DNA of 64,000 nucleotides, taken from NCBI GenBank assembly GCA_964036275.1, contig OZ038433.1, positions 13,354,446 through 13,418,445 on the forward strand. Reading direction: 5' to 3'. Position 1 is the stretch's first letter; every line of letters begins with the position of its first letter. This DNA comes from Litoditis marina. Taxonomy: Eukaryota; Nematoda; Chromadorea; Rhabditida; Rhabditidae. The notes beneath the pieces were generated by a model. It ran no database searches. It was not told the DNA's origin and saw only the letters and a program-made list of their open reading frames with translations. The translations under genes and the position numbers were made by a program. This document shows, in pieces, positions 1-63,733 of the stretch.

Positions 1-312
1 TTGACGAGTTCCTGTTTCTCTGGGGTCATTTGAGCAAGTCTTCTCTCATGCAGTTCACCGGACATCGTTACTCCGCTGAAAACGACAACTTTGTAAGAAA
101 AATCCTCTTGGATTATTAAAACTGCTTACTAGTTAATCAGTATTTTCAGAATTATAGTCGTCGCTTACAGAAAGGCGAGGTGTACTGTATATTTCACTTT
201 GCGCTGTGTAAGAACACATATACTCGATTCGTTCGTGCTGCTCGTATAAGCCCAGTTGGTGTAGTGGTTAGTGTTAGCGCCTCCCAATCTTTTTAGCCTG
301 GTTCGAGTCTCA

Positions 313-348
<36 letters not shown>

Positions 349-3300
349 CATTATTATTATTATTATTATCATTATTTATTATTACTATTATTATTACCAT
401 TATCATACCATTATTACCATTATTATCACCATTATTACCATTATAATCACTATTATTGTTAGTTTATATAATATAAATTATGATCGTCACTCACCGGTAT
501 CCACAAACGACGTCCCCTTTCTTCAGATCCGTCTTCGCGCAAACCCCAAGCCCGACTTCGGCGGTGACTTCAACGATTTGCAACCATGGGAAGTCCTGCA
601 AGAGAATATGGGATTGTCTAAGAACATCATAGAATGCAATATTTGCTCAAATAAGAGAGAAACTGTTTACCTCAACCGGTTTGTGTTGCGACCGCCGGAT
701 GAAGTCATGCAAATCTTCGGTGGATTTCAGCGATTTCCGCGGTTGGCTGTCAGAAGTGGTTGCGTTGAACTCTCTAATAATCTTAGAGATGTCCTTTAAC
801 ACGTTTCTGTCCTCATCTTCACTGCGTTCTCGTGAAGTTTCTAAAAAACTTGGTACTTAGGTAAAGGTAAAGGTAATACACTGGTTAAATATATATTTTC
901 ATTCTTAATTATGTCTGTTCAATCACCGATTGTGAAACCGACACGGTGTATTCAACGTTTTTTTACTCAGCGTGGAATCCACGATAAAATTGAAGTAAGT
1001 GTTAATGTAGCAGTAAACTCAAATGTGGATTGTTTACTTTAAAATTTACTCTAATTGTTTACTAATTCCGTCTGTTTCTACGATTTCATTTCCATAACTT
1101 AAAACAGTACTAGGGTGAGTAGAACATCTTATCTACTCACCGTGGAATACCACGGTAAGCTAAAATATGGAAAAAAACGAGCACTTAACGTAACTTTCGC
1201 TCTTTTCCAGCCTCTTCAGTTTGGGGTCAAATTAGGTAGCTATTTTGTGGTTTGTGGTATGCTGTCTTGTTACACATACCTGCAGCCTCGGCAATTCTTT
1301 CCACAGGTTTGCATTCTTGTCTTGGAACTGGATCGGTAGAAGGTGAAGGCTCTGTAAAGCAGAACAATCGTGCGTAATTCAGCTCCACATACGGAATGCT
1401 TTGATTTTTCAGCTGATAATTTTTCACAGCTGTCAACCATTAGTGTTTAACCATCAATAATTTTGTCTAAAAATGAGCGTTTTTCATCAGTGAATACCGC
1501 GAAAATCGAAAAAAATTGTGTTAGAACGGTTATAAATATACTAAATGTCGAAGTTTCTGTAGCTATGAGGATTTTTTCAATACCTGCAACTTCAACGACC
1601 ATTGCCAAGGGTTTCTTCTCTTGTGTTTGAAAGAGAACCGGTTCTGTTGGGATCGGGGCAGCTGAAAAAAATACAACAAATGAAATTCCAGGTCAAAACA
1701 AGATTCTAAGTTTTGATATTTTACATCCCATCTTGATATTATACACCTTTGATTTGTGTTAGGTTCGATTGACTGTTTTACACACTCACGTGGTGTTGGA
1801 TTGGTGTAATCGAAATCGAAAGAGACATCCCCGTACTCAGTAGAAGCGAACACGTCCGGACTCCCATTTTCAAACGGAGAGGGCCATTTTTTGTCTGAAA
1901 TGTATTGTTCACAGTTGTTATGTGCATATTCCAGTGTCTACCTAATTTTCTAATTGAAACAAAGTCAAGTAGACAGAAAACTATGGATTCAATAGTTTTT
2001 CTAAACTTTTTGGAAAACGAGAAATTTACGATTAACCTACATTACTACTTTTGTTGTTGCAATAAATCAAAACCAGAAACTTACAAAATGAAAAAAAGTT
2101 ATTCGATATCACACACTTTTAACTCTTTCCGATTTTTCCGTGGGACTCCACGGTGATTTGAATAAATTGATCTATTAACCGTATACGTGTTTTTCGTTGT
2201 TTCAATACATCACACGTATAAATATACACATGAAACAGAGCGAAGTTACTCTATATCCTATTTAACTGCTGATTTTTCACCCATTTTGGTTTTCCGTGGG
2301 ACTCCACGGCAATTTGAAAAAATTGATCTACCAACCGTACAAGTGTTTTTTGTTGTTTCAATACATCACAAGTATAAATATACACATTGAAAGAGAGCAA
2401 AGTTATTTTACATTCTATTTTACTGCTAATTTTTCACCCATTTTTGGTTTTCCGTGGGACTCCACGGAAATTTGAAGAAAAAAGACGTATCAAATGTACC
2501 ATTTTTTTGTGGCTGTAAAACATCACAAACGTGAAAAGAAGTTTCTGGCTTACTTTTTCTCCAGTCAATCTCGTTCGAATTCTCGTTCTGTCTATCTCTG
2601 TCATTCTCAGCATTAGACAACTGTACTGGCTGTTGCATGGCTTCCTCCAAATTAGCTCTTTCGGAAGCAGTCCCTAAAACTAGGCAGAATAAGTGTTGTA
2701 AAGTTGGAAACAGAGTCATTGAGTGATTGGATAGATATTCTAAAAAGGAACGAACACGATTGAGTGTGAATGAATAGCAAAAGCTAGCTTAAATTTTTGC
2801 AATTGCTATTGCGATGTGTTTATAGTTTGATCACGTTGTTTATGGTCGAGATTTGTAGATTATGATGTGCACTGAGATTGAACTACAACAATGGTTCAAT
2901 CACACCCTAGATTGTGAAGATATACAGTGAGCGGGATTGAACAAACATCAAATTCTCATCTCTCGTTGGTTTCTAGCTGATTTTTGCTAAAAAAATTTTT
3001 TTTGCTTATTGAGATCACAACTCATGTAATGATAACGCGTGACTCACGTTCTGGTACCTGCAGCTTCGGATACATTCTAGAGACTGAGGGAATTTCGTCT
3101 TCTGTAACAACAACTTTATAGAAATCCAACTCAAACTTAATAGTTTGAAACAAATCAGCTAAACTGTCTCTTTTCGTTGGGAATTGATCTTCTACTCTCC
3201 GTGCACGATGGAAAATAGCAGTTGTCCACAGCTGTATGAGACTATTTAAACAAACAAATGCGTTCAGATTGGTGTGAAAATGACCTGCTTGTTTCATTCA

Positions 3301-6300
3301 ACCATTATCATAAGGGCGTTCAAAAATAGTCAAACTCACAAGTGTGAAGCCATTTTGAAAATATTGTTCAACAAACCGTGAAAATCATAGACATCGTCAG
3401 AAACGGCAGCGGCTCTGGATGTGGTGGCAAGCTGATGATCTGGACCTAAAACTGTTCAATATAGATGTGAAAATATCGTGGAAAAATCATTTGTCGAGCT
3501 GTTTTTTTCCACAAAAACAACAGAACGAAAGATTCTTGGGGAACTCGAAAATATAAAAAGTTGAGAATGTAAAACATTTTCTTACCAAGACGACGGCTTT
3601 GCTTTCTGGGCGACCTGTGCACGAGAGTATTCGTCAAGGGTCCGACTTGACCAGTCATCATGTCGTCTGGAAATAGCAATAATCTGATTCATTATTTTTT
3701 TCTACTTTTTCAATCAATACCTATGAACTCGATAAACGGTGTGAACATGTCCTCATAAATCGATACACCAAAGTATGGGACTGACCAGAGTCTGAATCCT
3801 TCTCCGAAGATAGTTGTTTATTCCGTCTTCTGTCCACCTTTTTCGTCTTCACGGTTGAATGTAGTGCTAAAATAATTTGCGTGAAACAAATCTAAGTTTT
3901 TGTTCTCTTAAATTTTATGCACTTATATGTATTACTCGCTGTTTTATTAGTTTTAGACACCAATTCATCTGGCAGTCAGAGTCAAGTAATAAAGAATAGC
4001 ACACTGTTTATTGATTTAATTCATTTCTATGATCTATCGCGATGACCTAATGCGTTATTATAGTAGGAAGATCGTTTTGGAAATTTTCCGTGGAGTCCCA
4101 CGAAATGACCAAAATGAGTGGGAATTTGGCAGTCAAAGTCAAGTAATGAAGAATAGCACACTGTTTATTGATTTAATTCATTTCTATGATCTATCGCGAT
4201 GACCTAATGCGTTATTATAGTAGGAAGATCGTTTTGGAAATTTTCCGTGGAGTCCCACGAAATGACCAAAATGAGTGGGAATTTGGCAGTCAAAGTCAAG
4301 TTATGAAGAATAGCACACTGTTTATTGATTTAATCCATTTCTATGATCTATCGCGATGACCTAATGCGTTATTATAGTAGGAAGATCGTTTTGGAAATTT
4401 TCCGTGGAGTCCCACGAAATGACCAAAATGAGTGGGAATTTGGCAGTCAAAGTCAAGTAATGAAGAATAGCACACTGTTTATTGATTTAATTCATTTCTA
4501 TGATCTATCGCGATGGCCTAATGCGTTGTTATTGTAGGAAGATAGTTTTTACAAGTTTCCGTGGAGTCCCACGAAGTGACCAAAATAAGTGGTAATTCGG
4601 CAGTCAAAGTCAAGTGATGAAGAATAGCACACGGTTTATTGATTTAATCCATTTCTATGATCTATCGCGATGACCTATTGCGTTATTACAGTAGGAAGAT
4701 CGTTTTTACAAGTTTCCGTGGAGTCCCACGGAGTGACCAAAATAAGTGGGAATTCGGCAGTCAAAGTCAAGTGATGAAGAATAGCACACGGTTTATTGAT
4801 TTAATCCAGTTCTATGATCTATCGCGATGACCTATTGCGTTATTACAGTAGGAAGATCGTTTTTACAAGTTTCCGTGGAGTCCCACGGAGTGACCAAAAT
4901 GAGTGGGAATTCGGCAGTCAAAGTCAAGTGATGAAGAATAGCACACGGTTTATTGATTTAATCCATTTCTATGATCTATCGCGATGACCTATTGCGTTAT
5001 TACAGTAGGAAGATCGTTTTTACAAGTTTCCGTGGAGTCCCACGGAGTGACCAAAATAAGTGGGAATTCGGCAGTCAAAGTCAAGTGATGAAGAATAGCA
5101 CACTGTTTATCTAGTCAGTTCATTTCTACGATCTATGGCAATAATATAATGCGTTTTTACAGTAGGAAGATCGTTTTTATAAGTTTACGTGGAATCCCAC
5201 GAAGTGACCAAAATGAATTGGGTTCGGCAGTTAAAATGAGAGAATGAATAGCATTGCACTGTTTACTTCATTCAATCATTTCAATGATGTATCGCATTGA
5301 TATTTGATTTTTGATTGATGAAAAGTAACAGTATCGTAGATAGATCACTTTTTGTAGTTTTCGTGGAAACCCACGAAGCTCTCACACCATGCCAAACTCG
5401 ATTGCAACAATGCTCACGTGTTTTCACGTTCAGGTGTTTTACAGGTCGTCTAAGTACCTGTTTGCTCACTGTTCTGTAACTTGCTAGGACGACGCTGTGG
5501 CAGGTTGAATGTACTTGTGATCGGCTGGTCAACGCGCTTGTTCAGGTCTGAAATATTTGACAATTTACCTTATCACCAATCTTTTCTAAATACTTTGTGA
5601 CTGTAATGATACGAATTAGGCTGACGCTCTTAACTACATTCTCTCGAAATTCAAAAGTAGTGTTTTTGTATCATGACATTTAGGTTTCTGTACAGACCTT
5701 TTGTTTTGAACCTGTGCTGGTCTTCCTCTTCTTCTTCTTCTTCGTCTGAAACTGCGAAGTCAAGCATTTTTTGTTTCTCCTCGTCTTCTTCATTTTCTTC
5801 TGCACATATTTTTCGGATCAGCTTCTTGTCAGTCAAACTGTAAAAAAATTTCCATAGTTACATAACATATGCGTAATATCAGAAAACTTAGTGACATACT
5901 ATAACTTCCATATTATAACTTATTCTACCCACTCTTTGATCTTGAGCTTCTTTATGTCGGTAACTTTCTTGACTTCGCTCCGGAACTCCTCAACGTGTTC
6001 CAGAGTCCGCAAATGCAAGAATCCTCGGAAGGCACGTCTCCGATCGTCATCAGTGTAAGTTCGATCCTGCAATTTGTCACTACGGTAGTGAAGCCAGCTC
6101 GAAATAGAGTTTTCGAATGTATTATTCAAACATTGTACCAAAAAAATATTTTCATCCAAATAGCCAATGTTTGGTGAATGGAACAATTTTGAGACAATTT
6201 TGAGGAACAATTTACGTACAGGTTGAAATTAACATTTAGTCATACCTGAATAACTACACTGTGACCAGCGAGCAGGGCTGCATCTGCGTTCGGTCCACCT

Positions 6301-9300
6301 CTCAAGTTCTTCTCGCACCATTCATCAAACTGCATTTGAGCAGTCGTGTGTCGCACCTTAATGAGACAGAAGCTGATATTACTATAAAAAAATGCAAAAC
6401 ATGCTTGAGTATCTGTTGATCATGGAAAACTGCAAACATTTTTTGGGCAACGTTTCTGCATTTCTCAGGCAACTTTGACAGTGCTGGAATTTGCCCTTTT
6501 GTTTCCACAATTTGACTGGAAACTCGGATTAGGTTCAGATTGAATCTGAGTAAACTACAAAATACTTAGGCTGTGAATTGAACTACTCACTCCATTGCAC
6601 GTGATAATCTGATCCTTCAATCCACTGAGACGGAGGAACGATTGCATGTAGTATGCCGGATTATCTAGGGACTCGCCATGGTAGGTCAAGAAAAACTGTC
6701 GATCGTGCGCCAACCGGTCTTTCTTCTTCAGAAGAATCATACGCCTGAATTGATTTCGGTATTTTATATAAGTTCTCCAATTCATCATTAGATGGAAAAT
6801 AGATTACAGGGAATCAAATTATCGTAGTAGTTTGTTTCAATACGCGCCGTGAATAGCGGACAAAACAATCAGCGAAATCAAACTACAAATAAACCTGTAT
6901 AGACTCAGAAAGCACACCCTATGAGGTGGAAATTCTGATTTCTACATATTTTGAATTCAATATCACTAACGCCTTCTTCAGGTTGTGGTACACGTCTAGA
7001 AAACGCTTGATCCTTTCGTCTGCCACGAACAGACCACCCAGTAGAGAACTTCTAGTCTTCATGCTCTTGAGATTCTTGGGACACGCGTAATAGGACACCT
7101 AAAAATGTGAAGAGGCTAGTTTGAACTAATGAACAAACGCACCAGCAATCAATAAAATATAAAGTAATAAGACACCTAAAAATGTGAAAAAGCTAGTTTG
7201 AACTAACGAACAAACGCAAAAGTATGAACTGTGAAGTATAGTAAGAATCTCATTCTCACGTAGTAGTTCTTGCCCGCTTCCTTGAACACTCGGAATCCCG
7301 TATCTTTGTAAATTTGGCCGGTTTCGTCCTTCTGTCCTCGAATCGCTCCACAGAGAATTTTCTTTCCTATTTCATTCCTGTTCGTATTGTATACCACTAA
7401 GCACAACATGCATGCTCTGAAACAAAACGATGAAAACATGAAAAAAAATCCAAACAGTCTACGCAGATATTTTCAATGTTTCAATGTTTCTGCGATCACC
7501 CGAAACCCGAAAAAAATCTACATCACGAGCTCAGTTTTTCAATATTTAGCTGTGAAAATGAGTATGAGTTATATGAACATCTGAGTTACGACTTGAGTGT
7601 ATTGCTGAAACTGAAACAGTCATATGGAAGTACACGTCATCATTGTTTTTGCTTTTGAAGAGCTTTTTAAATGAAATATCTGACACGCAAAATAGTATTT
7701 TTCATGACTAGAACTAAACCCTGAATGAGTTGGTCATTGCCTATTTTCTAGTTTGAGAATTGTCAGCTCGTCTTTCAATCAAACGTGAATCGGTGTTGTT
7801 CACTTCTGCTGTGAAGTTGCAACAACTGTGAGTGAGTAAAAACTTGCGAACCTACCCAAGTACGTAGTTGAACTCGGCTAATGTGCATTGTGCTGACCGC
7901 GAATTGATATTCTCAATTTTCTCCACAATAGATTCATGAGCAAGATAAGCACATGCAACCGGATAAGGCGTATACTTCTGAAAAAAACCGATAGACGTTG
8001 TGTTTCTCTTGATGTGTAGGTAATTACGTTTCGAGTTTTATTTTGAGTTTGCTTCACTGCGATGAGTTTAAAACATCATTAATTACACGCTTTTGGGTAC
8101 TTGAGCGTAATTAGACACAATTCTCGTGGTTGAGGACAGACAGACGAGAGAGGTTCAATATACCTTCTCTTTAACAGTGACAGCTCCGCGTTTCGAGTGT
8201 GTACGAGCCTCTCTTGATTTACTCCGCTGCATAAGGTGAATCAGGCCGTCTTCGTATGTAACAATAGTAGCCAAGCGCAGTCCGTAGATGGAAACTGTAA
8301 GAATTTGTTGGACAATTATTACAGTATTCACGAAACAATGTGTAAAACTCGAATTTCAAGTGTACAATGTGCTAAAGTCACCATTGAAGTTACTGAAAAA
8401 ATCGATGAGTTACCCTCTTTTTTCATTTTGTTTTTGTTTTCAGTATTCACCAAACAAAGTGTACTTTGTGCAGAGCTCAAAGCTCACGTTTTCGGAAAAA
8501 AAAGATTAACACTTCTATTATTCAATAGTTGAATATACCACCCAGTTTTATTCTGGGAAGTATAAATTTCGTGTATCGTGGAATACTACGGAAAACTACT
8601 TGAAAACTTCACAAGGAGGTTGGAGTTTAGATTGACAGAAAATGTTGTGAGTATATTAAGGCTAACTACATTGTTGTCAATTAATTTAGTATCAGAACAA
8701 TTTCATTTGGAAATGAAAATTTTCCCCCATCGTGGAATCCCACGGAGAACGAATAGTCTTCTTTCATAATCTGGAGAGGTGAGATTTTTTAACTACCGTG
8801 GGATCCCACGAAGAAACTATTGCAACTGATTTTGGGAATGTTAGACTTCATATTAATAGTGAGAATGATGAGTTCGTAATGATAAACCTGTTTTATCGAT
8901 TTTCTTCAGTATCATAGCAATTCCTATCTAGAAAAGTAAAATTTCGTGAGCCGTGGGAGTCCACGGAAAACTGTTAAAGTACATAGCAACTACACTGGGG
9001 TACACGTAAAACAGGTGTTATCAAGATTACAGACACCATTACGTAAACTTGACTGAAGTTACTCGTCTTATCATATCTGGAACCTAGACAACGTAAGTTC
9101 TCACCTGGATTAACCACTTGCTTGATGTATTTCAATAAACAAATCATTGATTTTATGAATGTTAGTTGAACACCTTCTTTCACGCCCAACACAACCATTT
9201 TATTCATGACAAGAGTGAAAGTGGACTTCGAGAAGATGATATCGTCAACGGACACTTTTTCTCCGTAACTGAAATAATTATTCATGTTTTATTAAAATAT

Positions 9301-11836
9301 GAGGGTCGTATGGAGTATTCGTGTGGAAAAGAATCCGTTGTGGCGAATTACACAACAAAATTGCTTATTGAGAGTTGAAAATTTTCGATTAGTTTTTCTA
9401 GAATACTAAGTTAACGTGACTTCTCAATTTTCTTCTAGTATATACCAATTTTCTGATCTTATCGGAGCGCTTTAAGTGGTCGTCCGTTAGTTTCTCTGCT
9501 GTGTTGAAAGTCCTGATTATATCGGTTACAAGCCACCTCGAAGTTTTATACCAGGTAAAAGATTATTTCTCTGACGCAAAAAATCAGCCATCTGACAGTT
9601 TAAAGATTGCATTTCAGCTCGTGAAAACAATTAAGTTGTATAATTTTTAATATCGGACAGTTCTCACCGTTGTCTTGATCTCATTGTGTAGAGCAGAAAG
9701 CGTAAAACGCTAGCCAAGTAGGGATGTCTAAATTCTTGCTCTTCGTCGCCTTCTTGGGGGATAACCACACTCTTGTCTTCCTTGAGACTTTCCAGATAGT
9801 TAGAAAAACCGACCAGTAGCGGGTGTTGCTCCAAAACTAGTTTTCTCCAGAAACGCAAATGGTTGTACAAGCCTTTCTCCAGATCTGAACCACATTTTAG
9901 TTATATAAACTAATCGAGACCTAATATAGTCATAAATATAGCTTTGAAAACAAATTTTGAGGAGTGTGTTCCTGAAAATTAATGGTAAGCAAACTTAACA
10001 GTCGGTGTTCTGACTTAACGGTTAACCTAAACCGTGCTATCGCGCGCAGCGCGGAGCGCTGTGCGAAATTTGTCTTTGGTTCGGCTAATGCGCGCTTTCA
10101 TTTTTTTAGTTCACCCTCAAAAAGGCCCAAGCGTGCAAATCAAAACTTTCAATTATTTGTTGATATATGTACCTGTTCGAGGACGATAAACTTCTGTGTA
10201 ATATACCTGCCGCCAGTCATCGGCAAGAAAGTCAAATGTGTGACAGTGCTCAGGTGGTACAAGAAAAACAGTGTGCACGGCACCCTTCACTGAAAACAGA
10301 CACAGCTAAACTTTATATGTCAAAGTATGATCAAACTATGCGTTAGTGTTTTCACTACATGTCCTAAAACACAACTATTCGGTCAATTCACGTTGTGCAG
10401 TAATTAACCCAATTTTTGAGTACGAAATATAAGGTAATTAAATAGTTTATGGTACCATGCTATATAAATGGGGTTTGAAGGGTAACTGAGACGGTAATTA
10501 AATGATTGACGTTGTGACTTTGTGATGAAAAAACTAACGCAGAAAGTGTTTGTCTTCCGGCTCTTCATAGGTTTCCTCTCTCTCGAGAACATTAGAGGCA
10601 ACCGCGATGTCAGGTCGGTTCAGGTCGAGAATTGCGTTTTCCTGAAATTAAGAGGTTCTCCATGAAGCGAGTTTCCCGGAACTGTTTACACAACATATAA
10701 GAAACGTAACATGAATTTAGATGGAAAAGTTCACATTAATATTAAGCAACACAAATAATTTGCTTACAACTGAAATCAGTTACTTTAATCGGGCAATACG
10801 TGAAAGTTGTCATATTTTAACTGTTAAGAGCTCAAGGTAACAACTGCTCTCACCCCTCTCGGTCTCGGAATGGTCAGATCTGGTGGAATCTGATGGCTCT
10901 GTGACTTTTTGATCATCTGAAAATTACAACTCTCATTTGTATCAATTGCACATGGAAACTGAAGTCTACTGTTCAGTTCAACTTGAATTCACAAACGATT
11001 CATCATAAGGTTTTTAGCTGTTTGAGATTTTGTGTAGCTCTTCCTTCATACATAAAACATTTGACCTTAACCAACAATCCTATCGCGGGTTGATGGAGAA
11101 CTAATAGATATTTTGTCTTTTGATCTAGTCCCTATGATAGTTCTGAAACGCTCTTATTTTCAGAAAAAGAAATACCGAAATTTCATGCATCTCTGACTTG
11201 TATGATAACATATCTGTATACTAATATGCATTGTACTCTATGAGTTTTCCGATATCATAAAAAAAGTCGCGAGCTAACCTGCACCAGTTCTCGCACGTTC
11301 ATCAACAGTTCTTGATTGACTTTTGTGGCATTAGCCAGATGCACACCAGCACTAGAAGTCACATCATGTACTACTGGGTTTTGTACAACAGTCTGAAATG
11401 GTAAATATAATTCATTTGAGTAATTTTTGGGTAATGGTAAGTGTTTAATTGTAACAGATGAAAACGTGGCAAAAACTTGAACATTGTCAGCTCGTAACTG
11501 TTATGAGCCCTGAACAAAAAAATATATATTCTCCTCCCTCTCGATCTCGGAATGGCTAGATCTAATGGAATCTGATGGCTCTGTGACTTTTTGATGTGGG
11601 GGTCAATGATAAGTGTTCTAATCATGAAACTATCTCTGTGTACTCAAATACGTAACTCCGGAGAAGATAAAACTGTGTACCTTGTGCGTTAGTGGAACTC
11701 CCATTTCACGGAGTTTCTTCATAAAATATTCTATTATTTCGAACTCATACTGTGTGCGAGCTTGTGGAATATCTCGGCAATCCAACTTTGCACCGCGCAT
11801 GTTAACTGATATTTTCTCAGCCGCATGACGCACAAC
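1..11836 (-). CDS. Tyrosine recombinase-like / SET domain fusion protein, copy 1 (3' end outside window)
   Basis: This is the same gene in unit 1, with exon positions 15274 lower: for example 11836-11681 (starts VVRHAAEK), 11392-11279, 10916-10854, 10641-10539, 10289-10173, 9884-9668, 9268-9105, 8294-8164, 7977-7856, 7416-7260, 7098-6971, 6744-6591, 6515-6401, 6356-6246, 6097-5933, 5837-5698, 5547-5458, 3866-3786, 3666-3586, 3445-3340, 3241-3048, 2673-2554, 1894-1790, 1661-1584, 1351-1280, 840-671, 595-495 and 75-1 (cut by the window edge). The translated exons are identical to copy 2. No separate first exon is visible: upstream of 11836 lies an intron that crosses the duplication junction into the last exon of copy 2 (14177-13936), which ends in the matching phase 0. 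Copy 1 is therefore either 5'-truncated and silent, driven by an unseen start, or spliced onto copy 2. Confidence 0.65.
151..410 (+). mobile_element. tRNA-derived SINE-like element with TTA tail
   Basis: The body starts ATAGTCGTCGC...GGTACTGTATAT and ends in a tRNA-like part with an A box (GTAGTGGTTAG) and B box (GGTTCGAGTC), directly followed by a (TTA)n run to about 410. Other copies: 15428-15687 (unit 2), 34887-35056, 37008-37168 and 38955-39112 on plus, 31885-32026 and 34072-34230 on minus. Internal Pol III boxes plus a simple 3' tail are SINE features. It lies in an intron of the fusion gene. Confidence 0.7.
2130..2470. repeat. Short tandem copies around CCGTGGGACTCCACGG
   Basis: Three near copies of about 155 bp, each with TTTCCGTGGGACTCCACGG (2141, 2300, 2453) followed by a block with GTTTCAATACATCACA and ATAAATATACAC. 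They lie in an intron of copy 1 and share only the palindrome with the 157-bp arrays. The same block recurs at 17415-17745 in unit 2. Confidence 0.85.
3970..5385. repeat. 157-bp minisatellite with palindrome core (unit 1)
   Basis: The core GTGGAGTCCCACG recurs at 4090, 4247, 4404, 4561, 4718, 4875, 5032 and 5189, exactly 157 bp apart, with a diverged copy at 5363. Each unit also holds a TCGCGATGACCTA block and AAGTCAAGTGATGAAGAATAG. The array fills the 1.6-kb intron between exons 5547-5458 and 3866-3786 of the fusion gene. Central copies are nearly identical and edge copies are diverged, as expected for unequal exchange. Confidence 0.95.
5933..7416 (-). other. Tyrosine recombinase-like catalytic region (copy 1)
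   Basis: Same exons as in copy 2: box I-like at 7416-7260, pre-box II at 6744-6591, Arg-His and GHS at 6356-6246, candidate nucleophile Tyr at 6097-5933. The sequence is identical to copy 2, so the same doubtful splice border occurs between 6246 and 6097. Confidence 0.55.
8570..8970. repeat. Cluster of isolated palindromes in intron
   Basis: Four variants of the palindrome occur at about 8574 (CGTGGAATACTACGG), 8732 (CGTGGAATCCCACGG), 8798 (CCGTGGGATCCCACG) and 8951 (CCGTGGGAGTCCACGG), with no shared flank beyond them. Same at 23845-24245. Further single copies: 944, 1140, 12178 and 12713, with unit 2 equivalents. Confidence 0.8.
10030..10100. repeat. GC-rich palindromic repeat (GCGCGCAGCGC type)
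   Basis: CGCGCGCAGCGCGGAGCGCTGTGCG followed by a TTTGGTTCGGCTAATGCGC-like flank. Relatives at 25304-25374 (unit 2), 50286-50315 and 59062-59115, the last with the same TTTGG...GCCATTGCGCACC flank. A dispersed Caenorhabditis-type repeat, not a gene. Confidence 0.7.
11536..11600 (-). pseudogene. Dead copy of an exon inside an intron
   Basis: The minus strand reads IKKSQSHQIPLDLAIPRSRG, almost the same as the real exon at 10916-10854 (IKKSQSHQIPPDLTIPRPRG). It lies in the intron between exons 11836-11681 and 11392-11279 and has neither a proper acceptor upstream nor a GT at the matching donor position. It looks like a local exon duplication that was not adopted. Present also at 26810-26874. Confidence 0.6.
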
Positions 11837-12539
11837 CTGGAAAAGTTGAGAATATTCAATTTTGAAGTGTTTGATCTTCTGAACCGTTCTCACAAAAAAG
11901 AATCATCTTTCAGTGTCGTTTCAAATATTTTCTACTGCAACTAGAAGTTGTATTGGAAATTTCATGAACTGTTTTCTTATTCAATGCAAAGCTAAATTCT
12001 GAACTCTACAAAAAAGCGAAACTACACACTATGCTCGAATACTAGTTGTAATAGTGAATCCAAATCGTATATATATACAGAACTTGGAGGTCTGTCTACG
12101 ATTTTATTGCCAGCTGACAGTTTTTTGAGCCTAATGTAGAAGTCCGGGCCGGATTATAAAGGACTATACGCCTTACGTGGTATCCCACGGAAATATGTTG
12201 AAACGCATCAAAACGAAGTGAGAGTTTCCACAAGCAGACAGAGCGTATGTGTTTTATTGTACAAACTATCATTGAAATTTAAATAAGTAATGTATCATTG
12301 TTAGGATTCCAAAATTGCAAAAGAGGATTGCGAGGTGGTGGGAGTTTATAAAAAAACACCTGGGAGTTTTAGGTTGTGAAGGGCAGTTATGATTTACATT
12401 AGCATAACCTCTACTCCTACAACACCTACAAAACTGTATTTTTCATTCAAAGCGTACTGTAGAAGTCTGAGCCAGATTGAAAAGCACTATGCGCCTGAAG
12501 TGGTATAAGACGGAAAAGTGATAAAATTTCACTATGAGA

Positions 12540-12605
12540 GAAGGGAAGGAGAGAGAGAGAGATAGAGATAAAGAGAGGGAAGAGGAGTGAGAGAGAGAAA
12601 AAAAA
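12540..12605. repeat. GA-rich low-complexity tract
   Basis: Purine-rich run (GAGAGAGAGATAGAGATAAAG...) in the first long intron of copy 1; duplicated at 27814-27879. Open frames through it are artefacts. Confidence 0.9.
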
Positions 12606-13438
12606 AGTTTACAAGCAGAAATAAGCATGTGCGTATTGATGTACACTTCGTCAATCGAATTAAACTCAGTTCTATAACATTCCAAAACCCGTGAAGTGTA
12701 GTTTGCATTCACCGTGGGATTACACGTAAAATTTCAAAACTGGGTTGCGAACGGGCTAGAGTTAACGAAAAAGCGTAAGTATTCAATTGTGAAGGGCAGT
12801 TATGATTTACATTAGCATGATGAAATAACAACGTGTGTTTTTTTTATCCAACATTAGCATGTGATTATTACAGAGTGTTTTTTTTATTCAACTCTTATAG
12901 TGCATCCAAGTTAAAACAAAAATATTCATGATACTAACTCGTTTATTTTTATTTAGTACAAGAGACTTTCTATGTCTTTTTCGATTGAACTGACCCTATT
13001 CTGCTCCGATGTGAGACGATGAATATATAGATGATCTGCAATGCGTCCTTTATCGCTGCTCTGTCCACATACAATGCAATGGTAGCCACTCTCCGATTTC
13101 AATTTACTACCGAAGAAATCTGCAATAAATATGGAAGTAATAATAACACTACGCGGTATGTACTTGCTGAAATCAAACCAGTTCTCTTAGGATGTTTAGT
13201 ACTTTTGTTAGTTATGCACGTAGTTATCGTAGAGGCTCGAGAGGTCATGGTTTGGTCCAGCCGGTTAGAGTGCGGTATAGGTATTTCTACAGAATGAAAC
13301 ACACGTTCTGGTCAGAAGTTAATCCGAAGTTAACTAACACACCGACATTACATTTTACAACAAACCTCACAGAATGGCTTAGTTAATTCGGAAACGTTCT
13401 CCATACAGACGCTACGTATACGATACGTATTGATAAAG

Positions 13439-13935
13439 TGGTTGCTGGCTTGCTAGCTCCACTTCGAGGGTCGACCCAGCATCGCACTATTGCTGGGAAC
13501 GGCCCCTCCCTTCGGGGATAAAAAAGTAGATCAAAAAAGAGTTGGGTACCAGTTATAGATCAAATTTTGAAAAAGTTACGAAATGAACACAAAAGTAGTT
13601 GTTCGTAACTATTTTTCGTTCGTAACTAAGTAAACTTCTGTTGTGATCAAATCAAACGACTTATATTGAGTTTTCATAGAAGTTCACACAATAATATCCA
13701 GATTGTCTTATACATACTTGATTTTGCAAAATGGGAGATTTTTATTTCAGCTCATGTTCGATAGATGAATATATTTCATTTCGACATATTGTTTTCAACA
13801 ACCGTTTTCCAAAGGGTGTAAACATAATTCAGTTGTGATCGAATTTTAAAAGCAGACTGACGATATTGGAACTTCGTCGTTCTCTATTAGATAAAACATG
13901 ATAAACGCTCAAGTGACACGTAAAACGTAACTTAC
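13439..13935. other. Junction-proximal intron sequence, no gene seen
   Basis: Left end of unit 2, after the last recognisable exon of copy 2. It starts with a GC-richer 80-bp patch (13439-13525, with GGCCCCTCCCTTCGGGGAT) and then AT-rich DNA. Nothing coding. The donor at 13935 (ATG|GTAAGT) opens an intron leftwards through this stretch; without splicing the frame stops 9 codons later. Confidence 0.6.
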
Positions 13936-14382
13936 CATTACATCTTGCGTGAAGAGACGACGTGAAACCTCAATTGCGTCATGCCATGTACGCGAGAAAG
14001 ATTCTTCTACCACCAAAATATCATGCGGTGTGGAAAGCAAAATCTTCCGGAGTACGAGCGGAGCACTGCGAGAATTTGGATACGCAACCAGTGGAGCACT
14101 TAGTGGCGTTTGTGACATGGTGCGGAAATCAGTCTCCTCCGCTTCGGCAACGAAAACCACATCTCGACTCATTTTCACTGAAAAACACTTTAACTAACTC
14201 TTTTTTCTATCTCTCTCTCTCTCTCATGTTGAGTCTATTCTCCACTAATGTTTCTAACCTTTCCTCTATTTGATTTTTCTATTCTCCTCTCTCTCTTTAG
14301 TTTCCATATTTTTTAAGTAATACATTCTGTAGAATACGTTCCATATGTCTTCTCCTCTCATCTCTCTCTCTCTCTCTCCCTC

Positions 14383-14431
<49 letters not shown>

Positions 14432-15589
14432 TCCTCTTTCTCTCTCTCTATTTTTCTCTCTCTCTCTCTCTCTCACTCTCTTCTTTTCCTCATGTTTCAT
14501 TTCTCGTCTCTCCCTCTTCTAATAAAAAATCTTCAACTCACCATTTGGTCTGCATTCCTCACAGGGACAGGTTCGATACCAAGGCACTTCTTTATATTTT
14601 GCTCCGTAGTTGAACAAGATCAACCGGCCAGCCTACAAATATTTTACAGTTGTTTGAATAAACCGGATTAGAATGTTCCCTATAAAAATTCATACGTATG
14701 ATTACATAAAATACATAGGAATGAATATATCTGAAAGTATTTTTTTCCCGCCAATGGCATGTTTTTTGAACTCTAGGGAGCCTTATGTAGTTTGATCAGT
14801 AACAGGGAACAACGTTTATATTAAATTAATACCTCAATATCTTTTAGTGCCTTGAAGTACACCATAAGGTGAACAACTCCGGACCGCTCGCTGGCGATGA
14901 AATGCGGTGTGACGTTTGCATGCTCGAGACTGTGGTTTATTAACCGCCCGAGTACCACCGACCCTTCATAGGTAGCCTGGTGACTTTCTATGATCATGTG
15001 CCTCCTTTTGCCTCGAATATCGACTGTAAAATCAAAGATTGAACTCTCTGAGACTCCACTAACAGTTTTTATATTCAAAATACAGTAGTAACACTTTTCA
15101 CCGAACGATGCAATTTCAAGAGCTCTTCGAAATAAGATTCATTTGAGAGCTATCCGTAACCAGATTCTCAGAATATTTTGAAATCTCTAGAATTGGTTAA
15201 TACAAACCTTCTCGCGACCTTAAAAACGTCTCAATTGAAAGCGTATAAACTTACATGAGTGTTCGAAGACGTATTTCTTGACGAGTTCCTGTTTCTCTGG
15301 GGTCATTTGAGCAAGTCTTCTCTCATGCAGTTCACCGGACATCGTTACTCCGCTGAAAACGACAACTTTGTAAGAAAAATCCTCTTGGATTATTAAAACT
15401 GCTTACTAGTTAATCAGTATTTTCAGAATTATAGTCGTCGCTTACAGAAAGGCGAGGTGTACTGTATATTTCACTTTGCGCTGTGTAAGAACACATATAC
15501 TCGATTCGTTCGTGCTGCTCGTATAAGCCCAGTTGGTGTAGTGGTTAGTGTTAGCGCCTCCCAATCTTTTTAGCCTGGTTCGAGTCTCA

Positions 15590-15622
<33 letters not shown>

Positions 15623-18600
15623 CATTATTATTATTATTATTATCATTATTTATTATTACTATTATTATTACCATTATCATACCATTATTACCATTATTAT
15701 CACCATTATTACCATTATAATCACTATTATTGTTAGTTTATATAATATAAATTATGATCGTCACTCACCGGTATCCACAAACGACGTCCCCTTTCTTCAG
15801 ATCCGTCTTCGCGCAAACCCCAAGCCCGACTTCGGCGGTGACTTCAACGATTTGCAACCATGGGAAGTCCTGCAAGAGAATATGGGATTGTCTAAGAACA
15901 TCATAGAATGCAATATTTGCTCAAATAAGAGAGAAACTGTTTACCTCAACCGGTTTGTGTTGCGACCGCCGGATGAAGTCATGCAAATCTTCGGTGGATT
16001 TCAGCGATTTCCGCGGTTGGCTGTCAGAAGTGGTTGCGTTGAACTCTCTAATAATCTTAGAGATGTCCTTTAACACGTTTCTGTCCTCATCTTCACTGCG
16101 TTCTCGTGAAGTTTCTAAAAAACTTGGTACTTAGGTAAAGGTAAAGGTAATACACTGGTTAAATATATATTTTCATTCTTAATTATGTCTGTTCAATCAC
16201 CGATTGTGAAACCGACACGGTGTATTCAACGTTTTTTTACTCAGCGTGGAATCCACGATAAAATTGAAGTAAGTGTTAATGTAGCAGTAAACTCAAATGT
16301 GGATTGTTTACTTTAAAATTTACTCTAATTGTTTACTAATTCCGTCTGTTTCTACGATTTCATTTCCATAACTTAAAACAGTACTAGGGTGAGTAGAACA
16401 TCTTATCTACTCACCGTGGAATACCACGGTAAGCTAAAATATGGAAAAAAACGAGCACTTAACGTAACTTTCGCTCTTTTCCAGCCTCTTCAGTTTGGGG
16501 TCAAATTAGGTAGCTATTTTGTGGTTTGTGGTATGCTGTCTTGTTACACATACCTGCAGCCTCGGCAATTCTTTCCACAGGTTTGCATTCTTGTCTTGGA
16601 ACTGGATCGGTAGAAGGTGAAGGCTCTGTAAAGCAGAACAATCGTGCGTAATTCAGCTCCACATACGGAATGCTTTGATTTTTCAGCTGATAATTTTTCA
16701 CAGCTGTCAACCATTAGTGTTTAACCATCAATAATTTTGTCTAAAAATGAGCGTTTTTCATCAGTGAATACCGCGAAAATCGAAAAAAATTGTGTTAGAA
16801 CGGTTATAAATATACTAAATGTCGAAGTTTCTGTAGCTATGAGGATTTTTTCAATACCTGCAACTTCAACGACCATTGCCAAGGGTTTCTTCTCTTGTGT
16901 TTGAAAGAGAACCGGTTCTGTTGGGATCGGGGCAGCTGAAAAAAATACAACAAATGAAATTCCAGGTCAAAACAAGATTCTAAGTTTTGATATTTTACAT
17001 CCCATCTTGATATTATACACCTTTGATTTGTGTTAGGTTCGATTGACTGTTTTACACACTCACGTGGTGTTGGATTGGTGTAATCGAAATCGAAAGAGAC
17101 ATCCCCGTACTCAGTAGAAGCGAACACGTCCGGACTCCCATTTTCAAACGGAGAGGGCCATTTTTTGTCTGAAATGTATTGTTCACAGTTGTTATGTGCA
17201 TATTCCAGTGTCTACCTAATTTTCTAATTGAAACAAAGTCAAGTAGACAGAAAACTATGGATTCAATAGTTTTTCTAAACTTTTTGGAAAACGAGAAATT
17301 TACGATTAACCTACATTACTACTTTTGTTGTTGCAATAAATCAAAACCAGAAACTTACAAAATGAAAAAAAGTTATTCGATATCACACACTTTTAACTCT
17401 TTCCGATTTTTCCGTGGGACTCCACGGTGATTTGAATAAATTGATCTATTAACCGTATACGTGTTTTTCGTTGTTTCAATACATCACACGTATAAATATA
17501 CACATGAAACAGAGCGAAGTTACTCTATATCCTATTTAACTGCTGATTTTTCACCCATTTTGGTTTTCCGTGGGACTCCACGGCAATTTGAAAAAATTGA
17601 TCTACCAACCGTACAAGTGTTTTTTGTTGTTTCAATACATCACAAGTATAAATATACACATTGAAAGAGAGCAAAGTTATTTTACATTCTATTTTACTGC
17701 TAATTTTTCACCCATTTTTGGTTTTCCGTGGGACTCCACGGAAATTTGAAGAAAAAAGACGTATCAAATGTACCATTTTTTTGTGGCTGTAAAACATCAC
17801 AAACGTGAAAAGAAGTTTCTGGCTTACTTTTTCTCCAGTCAATCTCGTTCGAATTCTCGTTCTGTCTATCTCTGTCATTCTCAGCATTAGACAACTGTAC
17901 TGGCTGTTGCATGGCTTCCTCCAAATTAGCTCTTTCGGAAGCAGTCCCTAAAACTAGGCAGAATAAGTGTTGTAAAGTTGGAAACAGAGTCATTGAGTGA
18001 TTGGATAGATATTCTAAAAAGGAACGAACACGATTGAGTGTGAATGAATAGCAAAAGCTAGCTTAAATTTTTGCAATTGCTATTGCGATGTGTTTATAGT
18101 TTGATCACGTTGTTTATGGTCGAGATTTGTAGATTATGATGTGCACTGAGATTGAACTACAACAATGGTTCAATCACACCCTAGATTGTGAAGATATACA
18201 GTGAGCGGGATTGAACAAACATCAAATTCTCATCTCTCGTTGGTTTCTAGCTGATTTTTGCTAAAAAAATTTTTTTTGCTTATTGAGATCACAACTCATG
18301 TAATGATAACGCGTGACTCACGTTCTGGTACCTGCAGCTTCGGATACATTCTAGAGACTGAGGGAATTTCGTCTTCTGTAACAACAACTTTATAGAAATC
18401 CAACTCAAACTTAATAGTTTGAAACAAATCAGCTAAACTGTCTCTTTTCGTTGGGAATTGATCTTCTACTCTCCGTGCACGATGGAAAATAGCAGTTGTC
18501 CACAGCTGTATGAGACTATTTAAACAAACAAATGCGTTCAGATTGGTGTGAAAATGACCTGCTTGTTTCATTCAACCATTATCATAAGGGCGTTCAAAAA

Positions 18601-21600
18601 TAGTCAAACTCACAAGTGTGAAGCCATTTTGAAAATATTGTTCAACAAACCGTGAAAATCATAGACATCGTCAGAAACGGCAGCGGCTCTGGATGTGGTG
18701 GCAAGCTGATGATCTGGACCTAAAACTGTTCAATATAGATGTGAAAATATCGTGGAAAAATCATTTGTCGAGCTGTTTTTTTCCACAAAAACAACAGAAC
18801 GAAAGATTCTTGGGGAACTCGAAAATATAAAAAGTTGAGAATGTAAAACATTTTCTTACCAAGACGACGGCTTTGCTTTCTGGGCGACCTGTGCACGAGA
18901 GTATTCGTCAAGGGTCCGACTTGACCAGTCATCATGTCGTCTGGAAATAGCAATAATCTGATTCATTATTTTTTTCTACTTTTTCAATCAATACCTATGA
19001 ACTCGATAAACGGTGTGAACATGTCCTCATAAATCGATACACCAAAGTATGGGACTGACCAGAGTCTGAATCCTTCTCCGAAGATAGTTGTTTATTCCGT
19101 CTTCTGTCCACCTTTTTCGTCTTCACGGTTGAATGTAGTGCTAAAATAATTTGCGTGAAACAAATCTAAGTTTTTGTTCTCTTAAATTTTATGCACTTAT
19201 ATGTATTACTCGCTGTTTTATTAGTTTTAGACACCAATTCATCTGGCAGTCAGAGTCAAGTAATAAAGAATAGCACACTGTTTATTGATTTAATTCATTT
19301 CTATGATCTATCGCGATGACCTAATGCGTTATTATAGTAGGAAGATCGTTTTGGAAATTTTCCGTGGAGTCCCACGAAATGACCAAAATGAGTGGGAATT
19401 TGGCAGTCAAAGTCAAGTAATGAAGAATAGCACACTGTTTATTGATTTAATTCATTTCTATGATCTATCGCGATGACCTAATGCGTTATTATAGTAGGAA
19501 GATCGTTTTGGAAATTTTCCGTGGAGTCCCACGAAATGACCAAAATGAGTGGGAATTTGGCAGTCAAAGTCAAGTTATGAAGAATAGCACACTGTTTATT
19601 GATTTAATCCATTTCTATGATCTATCGCGATGACCTAATGCGTTATTATAGTAGGAAGATCGTTTTGGAAATTTTCCGTGGAGTCCCACGAAATGACCAA
19701 AATGAGTGGGAATTTGGCAGTCAAAGTCAAGTAATGAAGAATAGCACACTGTTTATTGATTTAATTCATTTCTATGATCTATCGCGATGGCCTAATGCGT
19801 TGTTATTGTAGGAAGATAGTTTTTACAAGTTTCCGTGGAGTCCCACGAAGTGACCAAATTAAGTGGTAATTCGGCAGTCAAAGTCAAGTGATGAAGAATA
19901 GCACACGGTTTATTGATTTAATCCATTTCTATGATCTATCGCGATGACCTATTGCGTTATTACAGTAGGAAGATCGTTTTTACAAGTTTCCGTGGAGTCC
20001 CACGGAGTGACCAAAATAAGTGGGAATTCGGCAGTCAAAGTCAAGTGATGAAGAATAGCACACGGTTTATTGATTTAATCCAGTTCTATGATCTATCGCG
20101 ATGACCTATTGCGTTATTACAGTAGGAAGATCGTTTTTACAAGTTTCCGTGGAGTCCCACGGAGTGACCAAAATGAGTGGGAATTCGGCAGTCAAAGTCA
20201 AGTGATGAAGAATAGCACACGGTTTATTGATTTAATCCATTTCTATGATCTATCGCGATGACCTATTGCGTTATTACAGTAGGAAGATCGTTTTTACAAG
20301 TTTCCGTGGAGTCCCACGGAGTGACCAAAATAAGTGGGAATTCGGCAGTCAAAGTCAAGTGATGAAGAATAGCACACTGTTTATCTAGTCAGTTCATTTC
20401 TACGATCTATGGCAATAATATAATGCGTTTTTACAGTAGGAAGATCGTTTTTATAAGTTTACGTGGAATCCCACGAAGTGACCAAAATGAATTGGGTTCG
20501 GCAGTTAAAATGAGAGAATGAATAGCATTGCACTGTTTACTTCATTCAATCATTTCAATGATGTATCGCATTGATATTTGATTTTTGATTGATGAAAAGT
20601 AACAGTATCGTAGATAGATCACTTTTTGTAGTTTTCGTGGAAACCCACGAAGCTCTCACACCATGCCAAACTCGATTGCAACAATGCTCACGTGTTTTCA
20701 CGTTCAGGTGTTTTACAGGTCGTCTAAGTACCTGTTTGCTCACTGTTCTGTAACTTGCTAGGACGACGCTGTGGCAGGTTGAATGTACTTGTGATCGGCT
20801 GGTCAACGCGCTTGTTCAGGTCTGAAATATTTGACAATTTACCTTATCACCAATCTTTTCTAAATACTTTGTGACTGTAATGATACGAATTAGGCTGACG
20901 CTCTTAACTACATTCTCTCGAAATTCAAAAGTAGTGTTTTTGTATCATGACATTTAGGTTTCTGTACAGACCTTTTGTTTTGAACCTGTGCTGGTCTTCC
21001 TCTTCTTCTTCTTCTTCGTCTGAAACTGCGAAGTCAAGCATTTTTTGTTTCTCCTCGTCTTCTTCATTTTCTTCTGCACATATTTTTCGGATCAGCTTCT
21101 TGTCAGTCAAACTGTAAAAAAATTTCCATAGTTACATAACATATGCGTAATATCAGAAAACTTAGTGACATACTATAACTTCCATATTATAACTTATTCT
21201 ACCCACTCTTTGATCTTGAGCTTCTTTATGTCGGTAACTTTCTTGACTTCGCTCCGGAACTCCTCAACGTGTTCCAGAGTCCGCAAATGCAAGAATCCTC
21301 GGAAGGCACGTCTCCGATCGTCATCAGTGTAAGTTCGATCCTGCAATTTGTCACTACGGTAGTGAAGCCAGCTCGAAATAGAGTTTTCGAATGTATTATT
21401 CAAACATTGTACCAAAAAAATATTTTCATCCAAATAGCCAATGTTTGGTGAATGGAACAATTTTGAGACAATTTTGAGGAACAATTTACGTACAGGTTGA
21501 AATTAACATTTAGTCATACCTGAATAACTACACTGTGACCAGCGAGCAGGGCTGCATCTGCGTTCGGTCCACCTCTCAAGTTCTTCTCGCACCATTCATC

Positions 21601-24600
21601 AAACTGCATTTGAGCAGTCGTGTGTCGCACCTTAATGAGACAGAAGCTGATATTACTATAAAAAAATGCAAAACATGCTTGAGTATCTGTTGATCATGGA
21701 AAACTGCAAACATTTTTTGGGCAACGTTTCTGCATTTCTCAGGCAACTTTGACAGTGCTGGAATTTGCCCTTTTGTTTCCACAATTTGACTGGAAACTCG
21801 GATTAGGTTCAGATTGAATCTGAGTAAACTACAAAATACTTAGGCTGTGAATTGAACTACTCACTCCATTGCACGTGATAATCTGATCCTTCAATCCACT
21901 GAGACGGAGGAACGATTGCATGTAGTATGCCGGATTATCTAGGGACTCGCCATGGTAGGTCAAGAAAAACTGTCGATCGTGCGCCAACCGGTCTTTCTTC
22001 TTCAGAAGAATCATACGCCTGAATTGATTTCGGTATTTTATATAAGTTCTCCAATTCATCATTAGATGGAAAATAGATTACAGGGAATCAAATTATCGTA
22101 GTAGTTTGTTTCAATACGCGCCGTGAATAGCGGACAAAACAATCAGCGAAATCAAACTACAAATAAACCTGTATAGACTCAGAAAGCACACCCTATGAGG
22201 TGGAAATTCTGATTTCTACATATTTTGAATTCAATATCACTAACGCCTTCTTCAGGTTGTGGTACACGTCTAGAAAACGCTTGATCCTTTCGTCTGCCAC
22301 GAACAGACCACCCAGTAGAGAACTTCTAGTCTTCATGCTCTTGAGATTCTTGGGACACGCGTAATAGGACACCTAAAAATGTGAAGAGGCTAGTTTGAAC
22401 TAATGAACAAACGCACCAGCAATCAATAAAATATAAAGTAATAAGACACCTAAAAATGTGAAAAAGCTAGTTTGAACTAACGAACAAACGCAAAAGTATG
22501 AACTGTGAAGTATAGTAAGAATCTCATTCTCACGTAGTAGTTCTTGCCCGCTTCCTTGAACACTCGGAATCCCGTATCTTTGTAAATTTGGCCGGTTTCG
22601 TCCTTCTGTCCTCGAATCGCTCCACAGAGAATTTTCTTTCCTATTTCATTCCTGTTCGTATTGTATACCACTAAGCACAACATGCATGCTCTGAAACAAA
22701 ACGATGAAAACATGAAAAAAAATCCAAACAGTCTACGCAGATATTTTCAATGTTTCAATGTTTCTGCGATCACCCGAAACCCGAAAAAAATCTACATCAC
22801 GAGCTCAGTTTTTCAATATTTAGCTGTGAAAATGAGTATGAGTTATATGAACATCTGAGTTACGACTTGAGTGTATTGCTGAAACTGAAACAGTCATATG
22901 GAAGTACACGTCATCATTGTTTTTGCTTTTGAAGAGCTTTTTAAATGAAATATCTGACACGCAAAATAGTATTTTTCATGACTAGAACTAAACCCTGAAT
23001 GAGTTGGTCATTGCCTATTTTCTAGTTTGAGAATTGTCAGCTCGTCTTTCAATCAAACGTGAATCGGTGTTGTTCACTTCTGCTGTGAAGTTGCAACAAC
23101 TGTGAGTGAGTAAAAACTTGCGAACCTACCCAAGTACGTAGTTGAACTCGGCTAATGTGCATTGTGCTGACCGCGAATTGATATTCTCAATTTTCTCCAC
23201 AATAGATTCATGAGCAAGATAAGCACATGCAACCGGATAAGGCGTATACTTCTGAAAAAAACCGATAGACGTTGTGTTTCTCTTGATGTGTAGGTAATTA
23301 CGTTTCGAGTTTTATTTTGAGTTTGCTTCACTGCGATGAGTTTAAAACATCATTAATTACACGCTTTTGGGTACTTGAGCGTAATTAGACACAATTCTCG
23401 TGGTTGAGGACAGACAGACGAGAGAGGTTCAATATACCTTCTCTTTAACAGTGACAGCTCCGCGTTTCGAGTGTGTACGAGCCTCTCTTGATTTACTCCG
23501 CTGCATAAGGTGAATCAGGCCGTCTTCGTATGTAACAATAGTAGCCAAGCGCAGTCCGTAGATGGAAACTGTAAGAATTTGTTGGACAATTATTACAGTA
23601 TTCACGAAACAATGTGTAAAACTCGAATTTCAAGTGTACAATGTGCTAAAGTCACCATTGAAGTTACTGAAAAAATCGATGAGTTACCCTCTTTTTTCAT
23701 TTTGTTTTTGTTTTCAGTATTCACCAAACAAAGTGTACTTTGTGCAGAGCTCAAAGCTCACGTTTTCGGAAAAAAAAGATTAACACTTCTATTATTCAAT
23801 AGTTGAATATACCACCCAGTTTTATTCTGGGAAGTATAAATTTCGTGTATCGTGGAATACTACGGAAAACTACTTGAAAACTTCACAAGGAGGTTGGAGT
23901 TTAGATTGACAGAAAATGTTGTGAGTATATTAAGGCTAACTACATTGTTGTCAATTAATTTAGTATCAGAACAATTTCATTTGGAAATGAAAATTTTCCC
24001 CCATCGTGGAATCCCACGGAGAACGAATAGTCTTCTTTCATAATCTGGAGAGGTGAGATTTTTTAACTACCGTGGGATCCCACGAAGAAACTATTGCAAC
24101 TGATTTTGGGAATGTTAGACTTCATATTAATAGTGAGAATGATGAGTTCGTAATGATAAACCTGTTTTATCGATTTTCTTCAGTATCATAGCAATTCCTA
24201 TCTAGAAAAGTAAAATTTCGTGAGCCGTGGGAGTCCACGGAAAACTGTTAAAGTACATAGCAACTACACTGGGGTACACGTAAAACAGGTGTTATCAAGA
24301 TTACAGACACCATTACGTAAACTTGACTGAAGTTACTCGTCTTATCATATCTGGAACCTAGACAACGTAAGTTCTCACCTGGATTAACCACTTGCTTGAT
24401 GTATTTCAATAAACAAATCATTGATTTTATGAATGTTAGTTGAACACCTTCTTTCACGCCCAACACAACCATTTTATTCATGACAAGAGTGAAAGTGGAC
24501 TTCGAGAAGATGATATCGTCAACGGACACTTTTTCTCCGTAACTGAAATAATTATTCATGTTTTATTAAAATATGAGGGTCGTATGGAGTATTCGTGTGG

Positions 24601-30264: not shown

Positions 30265-30760
30265 CGTTCCGATTTGTCGACTTTGACTGCCGCACTCCCA
30301 TTCATTTTGGTCACTTCGTGGGACTCCACGGAAACTTCCAAAAGCGATCTTCCTACTATAATAACGCATTAGGTCATCGCGATAGATCATAGAAATGAAC
30401 TAAATTAATAAACCGTGTGCTATTCTTTATTACTTGACTCTGACTGCCGAATTCCCACTCATTTTGGTCATTCCGTGGGACTCCACGGAAACTTCCAAAA
30501 ACGATCTTCCTAGTATAATAACGCATTAGGTCATCGCGATAGATCATAGAAAAGAATTAAATTAATAAACCGTGTGCTATTCTTCATTACTTGACTCTGA
30601 CTGCCGAATTACCACTCATTTTGGTCATTTCGTGGGACTCCACGGAAACTTGTAAAAGCGATCTTCCTACTATAATAACGCATTAGGTCATCGCGATAGA
30701 TCATAGAAATGGATTAAATCAATAAACCGTGTGCTATTCTTCATTACTTGACTTCACACA
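30265..30760. repeat. 157-bp minisatellite, three copies in inverse orientation
   Basis: The core GTGGGACTCCACGG occurs at about 30320, 30477 and 30634, again 157 bp apart, with the TAGGTCATCGCGATAGATCA block. This is the reverse complement of the arrays at 3970 and 19244 and lies outside the duplicated unit, between the SET gene and the coiled-coil gene. Confidence 0.93.

Positions 30761-57145: not shown

Positions 57146-63733
<6,588 letters not shown>

Follow-up and report, generated by a model that had tools for sequence, protein, structure and literature searches.

The nearest known cases to the gene described here are SETMAR and the Crypton-derived DUF3504 genes of animals. In SETMAR, the SET methyltransferase domain is located at the N-terminus. 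SETMAR, also termed Metnase, is a primate SET-mariner fusion that is described as sequence-specific (PMC6326780, PMC8327481). The animal Crypton-derived DUF3504 genes are described as having lost the catalytic Tyr and the second Arg, and the animal host genes that arose from tyrosine recombinase (YR) transposons as having lost the active site (PMC3212892). A recombinase-SET fusion was not found in the literature surveyed by titles and abstract openings. Herein, we describe a minus-strand gene of the nematode Litoditis marina, located in a 64-kb stretch of its 261.8-Mb genome (C4:13354446-13418445, termed the window, to whose numbering the positions below refer), whose predicted reading frame joins a likely YR catalytic domain to a SET domain. 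With a probability of about 0.55, we favour the reading that the product serves the host as a chromatin protein: the YR fold would attach it to particular DNA, where lysines would be methylated by the SET domain.

The gene resembles SETMAR in that a SET methyltransferase is joined to a DNA-transacting enzyme of the mobile-element type. However, the partner in SETMAR is the mariner transposase, whereas here a YR-like domain is followed by a C-terminal SET, and enough time has passed since the fusion for synonymous change to have come near saturation. Pfam reported no transposase in the predicted protein, which therefore lacks a recognizable mariner-type partner. The likeness to the Crypton-derived DUF3504 genes (KCTD1b, ZMYM2-4, QRICH1 and WOC) resides in a YR domain taken into a host gene, but both the Tyr and the second Arg are retained here. 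An earlier note on this DNA had pointed to the domestication of Crypton recombinases in animals, but a Crypton origin is left unsupported: Pfam gives no match to DUF3504, and the protein retains Arg II, His III and Tyr. A survey including 34 nematode genomes reports the DIRS, PAT and Ngaro types, with the sole accepted Crypton in Nematostella (PMC4157794).

A genome-wide search with PF00589 returned 69 rows at E<=10, of which 45 were over the cut-off by themselves, many with open frames of 300-430 residues. These YR elements of the same genome, which we take by their motifs to be DIRS/PAT-like, belong to the same superfamily; the 18 loci read differ in their HSFR/HSTR...W-type motifs and in matching Pfam, whereas the YR part of the fusion is unmatched. 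No reverse transcriptase was found by Pfam in the 1,338 residues of the predicted protein, the flanks not being included in that scan.

The gene was predicted from DNA, with exon borders set on the minus strand from the reading frame and splice signals. The complete gene, hereafter copy B (13776..28875), comprises 33 exons running from 28875 to 13776, with 4,017 coding bases, 1,338 residues and no internal stop. All 32 introns are GT-AG, and the acceptors are CAG or TAG in 31 of them, that of exon 15 being AAG. Acceptors of the TTTCAG type point to a nematode as the likely source. The claim of the earlier note that exon phases agree between the Tyr exon and SET is borne out by this model, in which each of the nine linker exons 18-26 has a length divisible by three, and the motifs to which it had drawn attention (TNRNEI, VRHTTA, GHS, the acidic linker, GRLINHS, FNYG and CPCEEC) do share one minus-strand frame.

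The predicted protein begins with exon 1 (28746..28875), which carries the first ATG of the model, followed by exon 2 (28269..28393), where CIVC...HLYIH (residues 58-77) is presumably a C2H2-like finger that was not reported by Pfam. Exons 8-11 (23130..25158), lying upstream of the YR catalytic domain, would form its core-binding part and are 54-62% identical in a diverged paralogue, subfamily 2. The YR region is succeeded by a linker that is acidic and then of low complexity (exons 17-26, 16554..21111), by a stretch preceding SET (exon 27, 15945..16114; 47% identity to subfamily 2), by SET itself at about residues 1063-1222 with a post-SET-like end (exons 28-31, 14542..15869; GLGV, RLINHS, FNYG and CPCEEC), and by a C-terminal tail with the stop (exons 32-33, 13776..14177).

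Searching with the exon that bears the Arg-His and GHS motifs revealed eight YR loci, namely two on C4, two near-identical ones on C16, two of subfamily 2 (also C16), one on C17 and one at 32.470 Mb of C16 (C16b), and these counts are lower bounds. YR exons were read in the three diverged lineages, while the near-identical pair on C16 and one of the subfamily 2 loci are known as search hits. In the four lineages read (the window gene, subfamily 2, C17 and C16b), the series RHxTAQMQFD...LAGHS...Q...YT is kept, the invariant residues including R629, H630, T632, A633, Q634, M635, Q636, F637, D638, G658, H659, S660, Y668 and T669. It is these diverged paralogues that settle the exon model, as judged from sequence, including the position of the Tyr.

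The earlier note had assigned the catalytic Tyr to WLHYR (21341..21371), which proved to be intronic: an exon starting there breaks the frame, and nothing equivalent to the stretch is present in the matching intron of subfamily 2. The acceptor ttgcag|GATCGA at 21340 instead gives LAGHSVVIQ|DRTYTDDD in phase, and the start of exon 16 (21207..21340) at DRTYTDDD agrees with the three other lineages read. The candidate nucleophile is hence Y668, nine residues past the His of GHS (H659), a spacing shared with E. coli XerD, so that the GHx His III and the Tyr are found at the usual YR spacing in four of four lineages. In C16b, RH through YT is encoded by a single exon in one unbroken frame, which makes the Tyr position there independent of splicing.

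Exon 15 (21520..21630), with 92% identity to subfamily 2, supplies R629 and H659, and Arg II (R629) is kept in all four lineages; the HxxR of box II is nevertheless incomplete, as described below for its His. The candidate for Arg I is R494 in NTNRNEIGKK of the box I-like exon 12 (22534..22690), where NTxRNEIG is invariant in the three lineages read there, at a position outside the range aligned by HHalign. Exon 13 (22245..22372) holds the candidate beta-hairpin lysine region (K544/K547), whose KSMKTR aligns with the lysine region of bacterial YRs and was read in two lineages. The ordered pattern RH[ST]x[AGS]-x15-45-[LIVMA][GA]H[STRK]-x7-9-Y occurred in 2 of 200,000 shuffles of the predicted protein, compared with 32 of 81 real YRs; since this pattern was composed post hoc, once the motif had been seen, the conservation among paralogues is the stronger evidence.

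Selection was evaluated on the gapless pieces read by Nei-Gojobori proportions of nonsynonymous and synonymous differences (pN and pS). In the YR half, pS and pN were 0.82 and 0.19 against subfamily 2 (386 codons), 0.86 and 0.23 against C17 (133 codons), and 0.76 and 0.37 against C16b (109 codons); in the SET half, they were 0.93 and 0.34 against subfamily 2 (89 codons) and 0.86 and 0.36 against C16b (86 codons). Exon 15 was the most constrained among the pieces compared, with pN of 0.06 versus pS of 0.72 against subfamily 2. Synonymous change near saturation together with lower nonsynonymous change in both halves is, at the level of sequence comparison, purifying selection. Elsewhere, two box-I-like matches to the YR part (45% and 51%) were observed at G000:C2:2418575-2419578, with the later boxes missing from the hit list.

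A profile search of the central region, which the earlier note had proposed, gave a divided outcome: PF00589 and DUF3504 went unreported by Pfam, while a profile of the four paralogues does match YRs. The reference profile consisted of 81 sequences, namely XerD, FimB, FimE and frames from 78 of 80 viral-contig loci. HHalign of the four-paralogue alignment against it scored 31.5 (rough E 2e-4) in register. All 400 column shuffles stayed below that score, the best of them at 27.4, and reversing the alignment gave 16.6. The C-terminal part of the paralogue alignment alone scored 31.4, which was reached by none of 300 shuffles (top 30.4). In this alignment, K544, N626, R629, GHS and Y668 are placed on the Lys region, His, Arg, GHS and Tyr of XerD, and box II is in register in both the single-sequence hidden Markov model (HMM) and the single-sequence HHalign alignments.

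Several results weigh against a recombinase. The His of HxxR is replaced by Asn (N626, in exon 14, 21865..22018, the run-up to box II) in all three lineages read there. The probability given by HH-suite itself for the four-paralogue match is 48%; with the HMM of the 81 YRs, the whole protein scores 4.6 bits and the YR part 1.7, and when the YR part was shuffled 1,000 times, 5 shuffles attained 4.6; and single-sequence HHalign scores 15.2, with higher values for at least 15 of 300 shuffles. No recombinase was returned with single sequences by Pfam, PHROGs or the PDB, by the PDB when queried with a profile built from the C-terminal portion of the aligned paralogues, or by Pfam when the four paralogue members were scanned singly; PF00589 was not reported for the YR pieces at E up to 10, and the fusion locus is not among the 69 rows of the genome-wide search. 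Six DIRS-type YRs of the same genome, used as a second profile, likewise gave no clear match, the score being reached by 8 of 200 shuffles, and descent from these elements thus finds no profile support with the six sequences. Neither the whole protein nor its YR half had a match at E<=10 in a protein database, and an alignment search yielded one 165-residue frame (P0002) that covers 16% of the query at 97% identity; it is an intron read-through, in another assembly, of what is likely this very gene.

From these data it might be argued that the central region is no YR at all and that its motifs fell into this order by chance in a nuclear protein that evolves fast, with the silence of every curated profile, the Asn in place of His II, the box I that falls outside the HHalign match and the modest HH-suite probability all pointing that way. 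We regard this as improbable, because Arg, GHS and a Tyr at H+9 are kept by four lineages and the in-register match beats 400 of 400 column shuffles. The paralogue profile match and the conserved motifs, despite the null curated searches, lead us to label the central region as likely a diverged YR domain of unproven fold.

The SET domain was recognized by Pfam in the window gene (PF00856; E=5.6e-10, 40 bits versus a cut-off of 22.4), with GxG, NHS and FNYG present, and was the only domain reported over the whole 1,338 residues. Matches in the PDB were to SETD8 and EHMT2 (E about 0.002-0.01); KMT5A/SETD8 and EHMT2 share the SET core with GxG, NHS and Tyr motifs, although the pairwise similarity is weak. 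Five SET loci of the family were found (two on C4, two of subfamily 2 and one at C16b), all on the same strand as and downstream of the YR locus, with 4.1-5.1 kb from the Tyr exon to SET, and the order of YR and then SET recurs in three lineages, those of the window, subfamily 2 and C16b.

The SET half is less uniformly kept among the paralogues, which counts against the fusion. Three of the eight YR loci (C17 and the two near-identical C16 loci) gave no SET match, and the FNYG/post-SET exon was matched in the C4 pair only, not in the diverged paralogues. In subfamily 2, the 2.4 kb read contained only exons 27-28 of the SET side; beyond them lies a frame that, by its motif, we take to be C-type-lectin-like, and for this reason the SET of subfamily 2 may be truncated. 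For C16b, the 1.4 kb read yielded three SET exons as far as GRYINHS and stops past the NHS exon.

These gaps bear on the possibility that a YR gene and a SET gene merely stand side by side, kept in tandem and modelled as one. The loci on C17 and C16 without a SET match mean that YR loci without a detected SET exist. We nonetheless consider two adjacent genes unlikely, as all junctions of the predicted model are in phase, the nine linker exons are divisible by three, and three lineages share the order and the strand, with 4-5 kb from the one part to the other. The same-strand arrangement of YR and then SET with partial SETs suggests a fusion of long standing, parts of which were later lost or lie outside the stretches read, rather than a chance neighbour. 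The recombinase-SET fusion put forward by the earlier note, in which the Tyr was misplaced, is supported by its single frame, its order in three lineages and its in-register YR profile match.

The window harbors a 15.27-kb head-to-tail tandem duplication, in which 1-13438 equals 15278-28712 with 99.97% identity. The left unit, copy A (1..13438), contains exons from exon 2 on (exon 2 at 12995-13119) with its YR catalytic exons 12-16 at 5933..7416; exon 1 is absent, the edge of the duplication being at 28712, and the last exons lie to the left of the window. In the left flank (L010), copy A is completed to exons 2-33, with no exonic difference from copy B seen. The two copies differ by three substitutions and two microsatellite length changes over about 15.1 kb, a count that leaves out the unmatched edge at 13576-13614. 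Such near-identity stems either from a duplication of very recent date or from an error of the assembly, and is uninformative about selection. The duplication also bears on the interval 5933..15869, which the earlier note had taken for one gene: the interval mixes two tandem copies, containing in the direction of transcription the SET exons of the right copy and then exons 2-16 of the left one.

Near-identical copies occur on C4 (two) and in arrays on C16, where the step from one unit to the next measures about 15,386 bp in four of five cases and 17,910 in one. The C4 pair is spaced by 15,274 and differs in exon contents from the C16 units, C4 repeating exons 2-33 and the C16 units holding other exon sets. 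The segment shared by C4 and C16 terminates inside 156/157-bp satellites at about 17767 and 30753 of the window; similarity to C16:32769k ends at about 17767, and similarity to nine C16 units ends at 30753, the last base of an array. The copy boundaries look like those of a satellite-bounded segmental duplication, not those of an element with fixed ends, even if a recombinase may have played a part.

It is against this background that a mobile element encoding its own YR and SET has to be considered. In such an element, chromatin would be shaped by SET so as to favour integration, and circles produced by the recombinase would give rise to the tandem copies. Near-identical copies at a period of about 15,386 bp, their head-to-tail arrangement and the retention of Arg II, His III and Tyr would suit such an element; its 33 exons, the lack of fixed ends, the different exon sets of C4 and C16, the termination of the shared segment in satellites and the near-identical C16 copies without a SET match would not, and we hold it to be rather unlikely. 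Between the host gene and the mobile element, both of which the earlier note had entertained, the former is favoured because of the 33 exons, the purifying selection evident since synonymous change neared saturation, and the copies that end in satellites.

The satellites themselves are based on different units of 156 and 157 bp, both with a dyad, and occupy 2134-2528, 3971-5295, 17408-17802, 19245-20569 and 30279-30753. The dyad CGTGG[AG]N0-3[CT]CCACG has 35 sites between 971 and 30644, none past 30644 and none in the exons of copy B, being located in introns 9, 18, 23 and 26 of that gene, in their counterparts in copy A and upstream. The strict dyad, CCGTGGRNNYCCACGG, occurs 15 times in the window and 1003 times in the genome, with 0 for the reversed control. 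Relatives of the satellites are present in arrays on C1, C3, C4 and C16, some adjoining copies of the gene family and some not, and the subfamily 2 intron after exon 13 contains a different 157-bp array with no dyad (L131 3992-5922, L133). On C16, the region G000:C16 32.69-32.96 Mb consists of arrays of 15.4-kb units, with a block repeated 196.9 kb apart and inverted copies. In addition, a dispersed repeat of about 473 bp lies at 29118-29590, with many 91-96% copies among the matches listed, and the frames at 57737-62600 resemble an acyltransferase-3 (OAC-type) gene.

In the host chromatin protein that we favour, both halves would be made as one protein, of which the finger and the YR part would bind DNA and so anchor it on particular sequences, while the SET half would methylate nearby lysines, probably on histones and most plausibly for silencing or marking repeats. 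Since the YR domain preserves Arg II, His III and Tyr, it may retain some strand-exchange or DNA-gripping chemistry. A much bolder proposal, to which we attach very little credence, is that this animal host gene family retains a working tyrosine recombinase fused to a histone methyltransferase, whose product recognises the CCGTGG-N4-CCACGG dyad of the 156/157-bp satellites that lie within the introns of its gene and next to the gene copies, and marks and recombines them, which would build the arrays of that gene.

For the recombinase family, the case implies that curated profiles can overlook such a YR unless its paralogues are aligned. If the fusion is true, it would provide an animal site-specific recombinase, or a DNA-gripping descendant of one, that is tied directly to chromatin marking.

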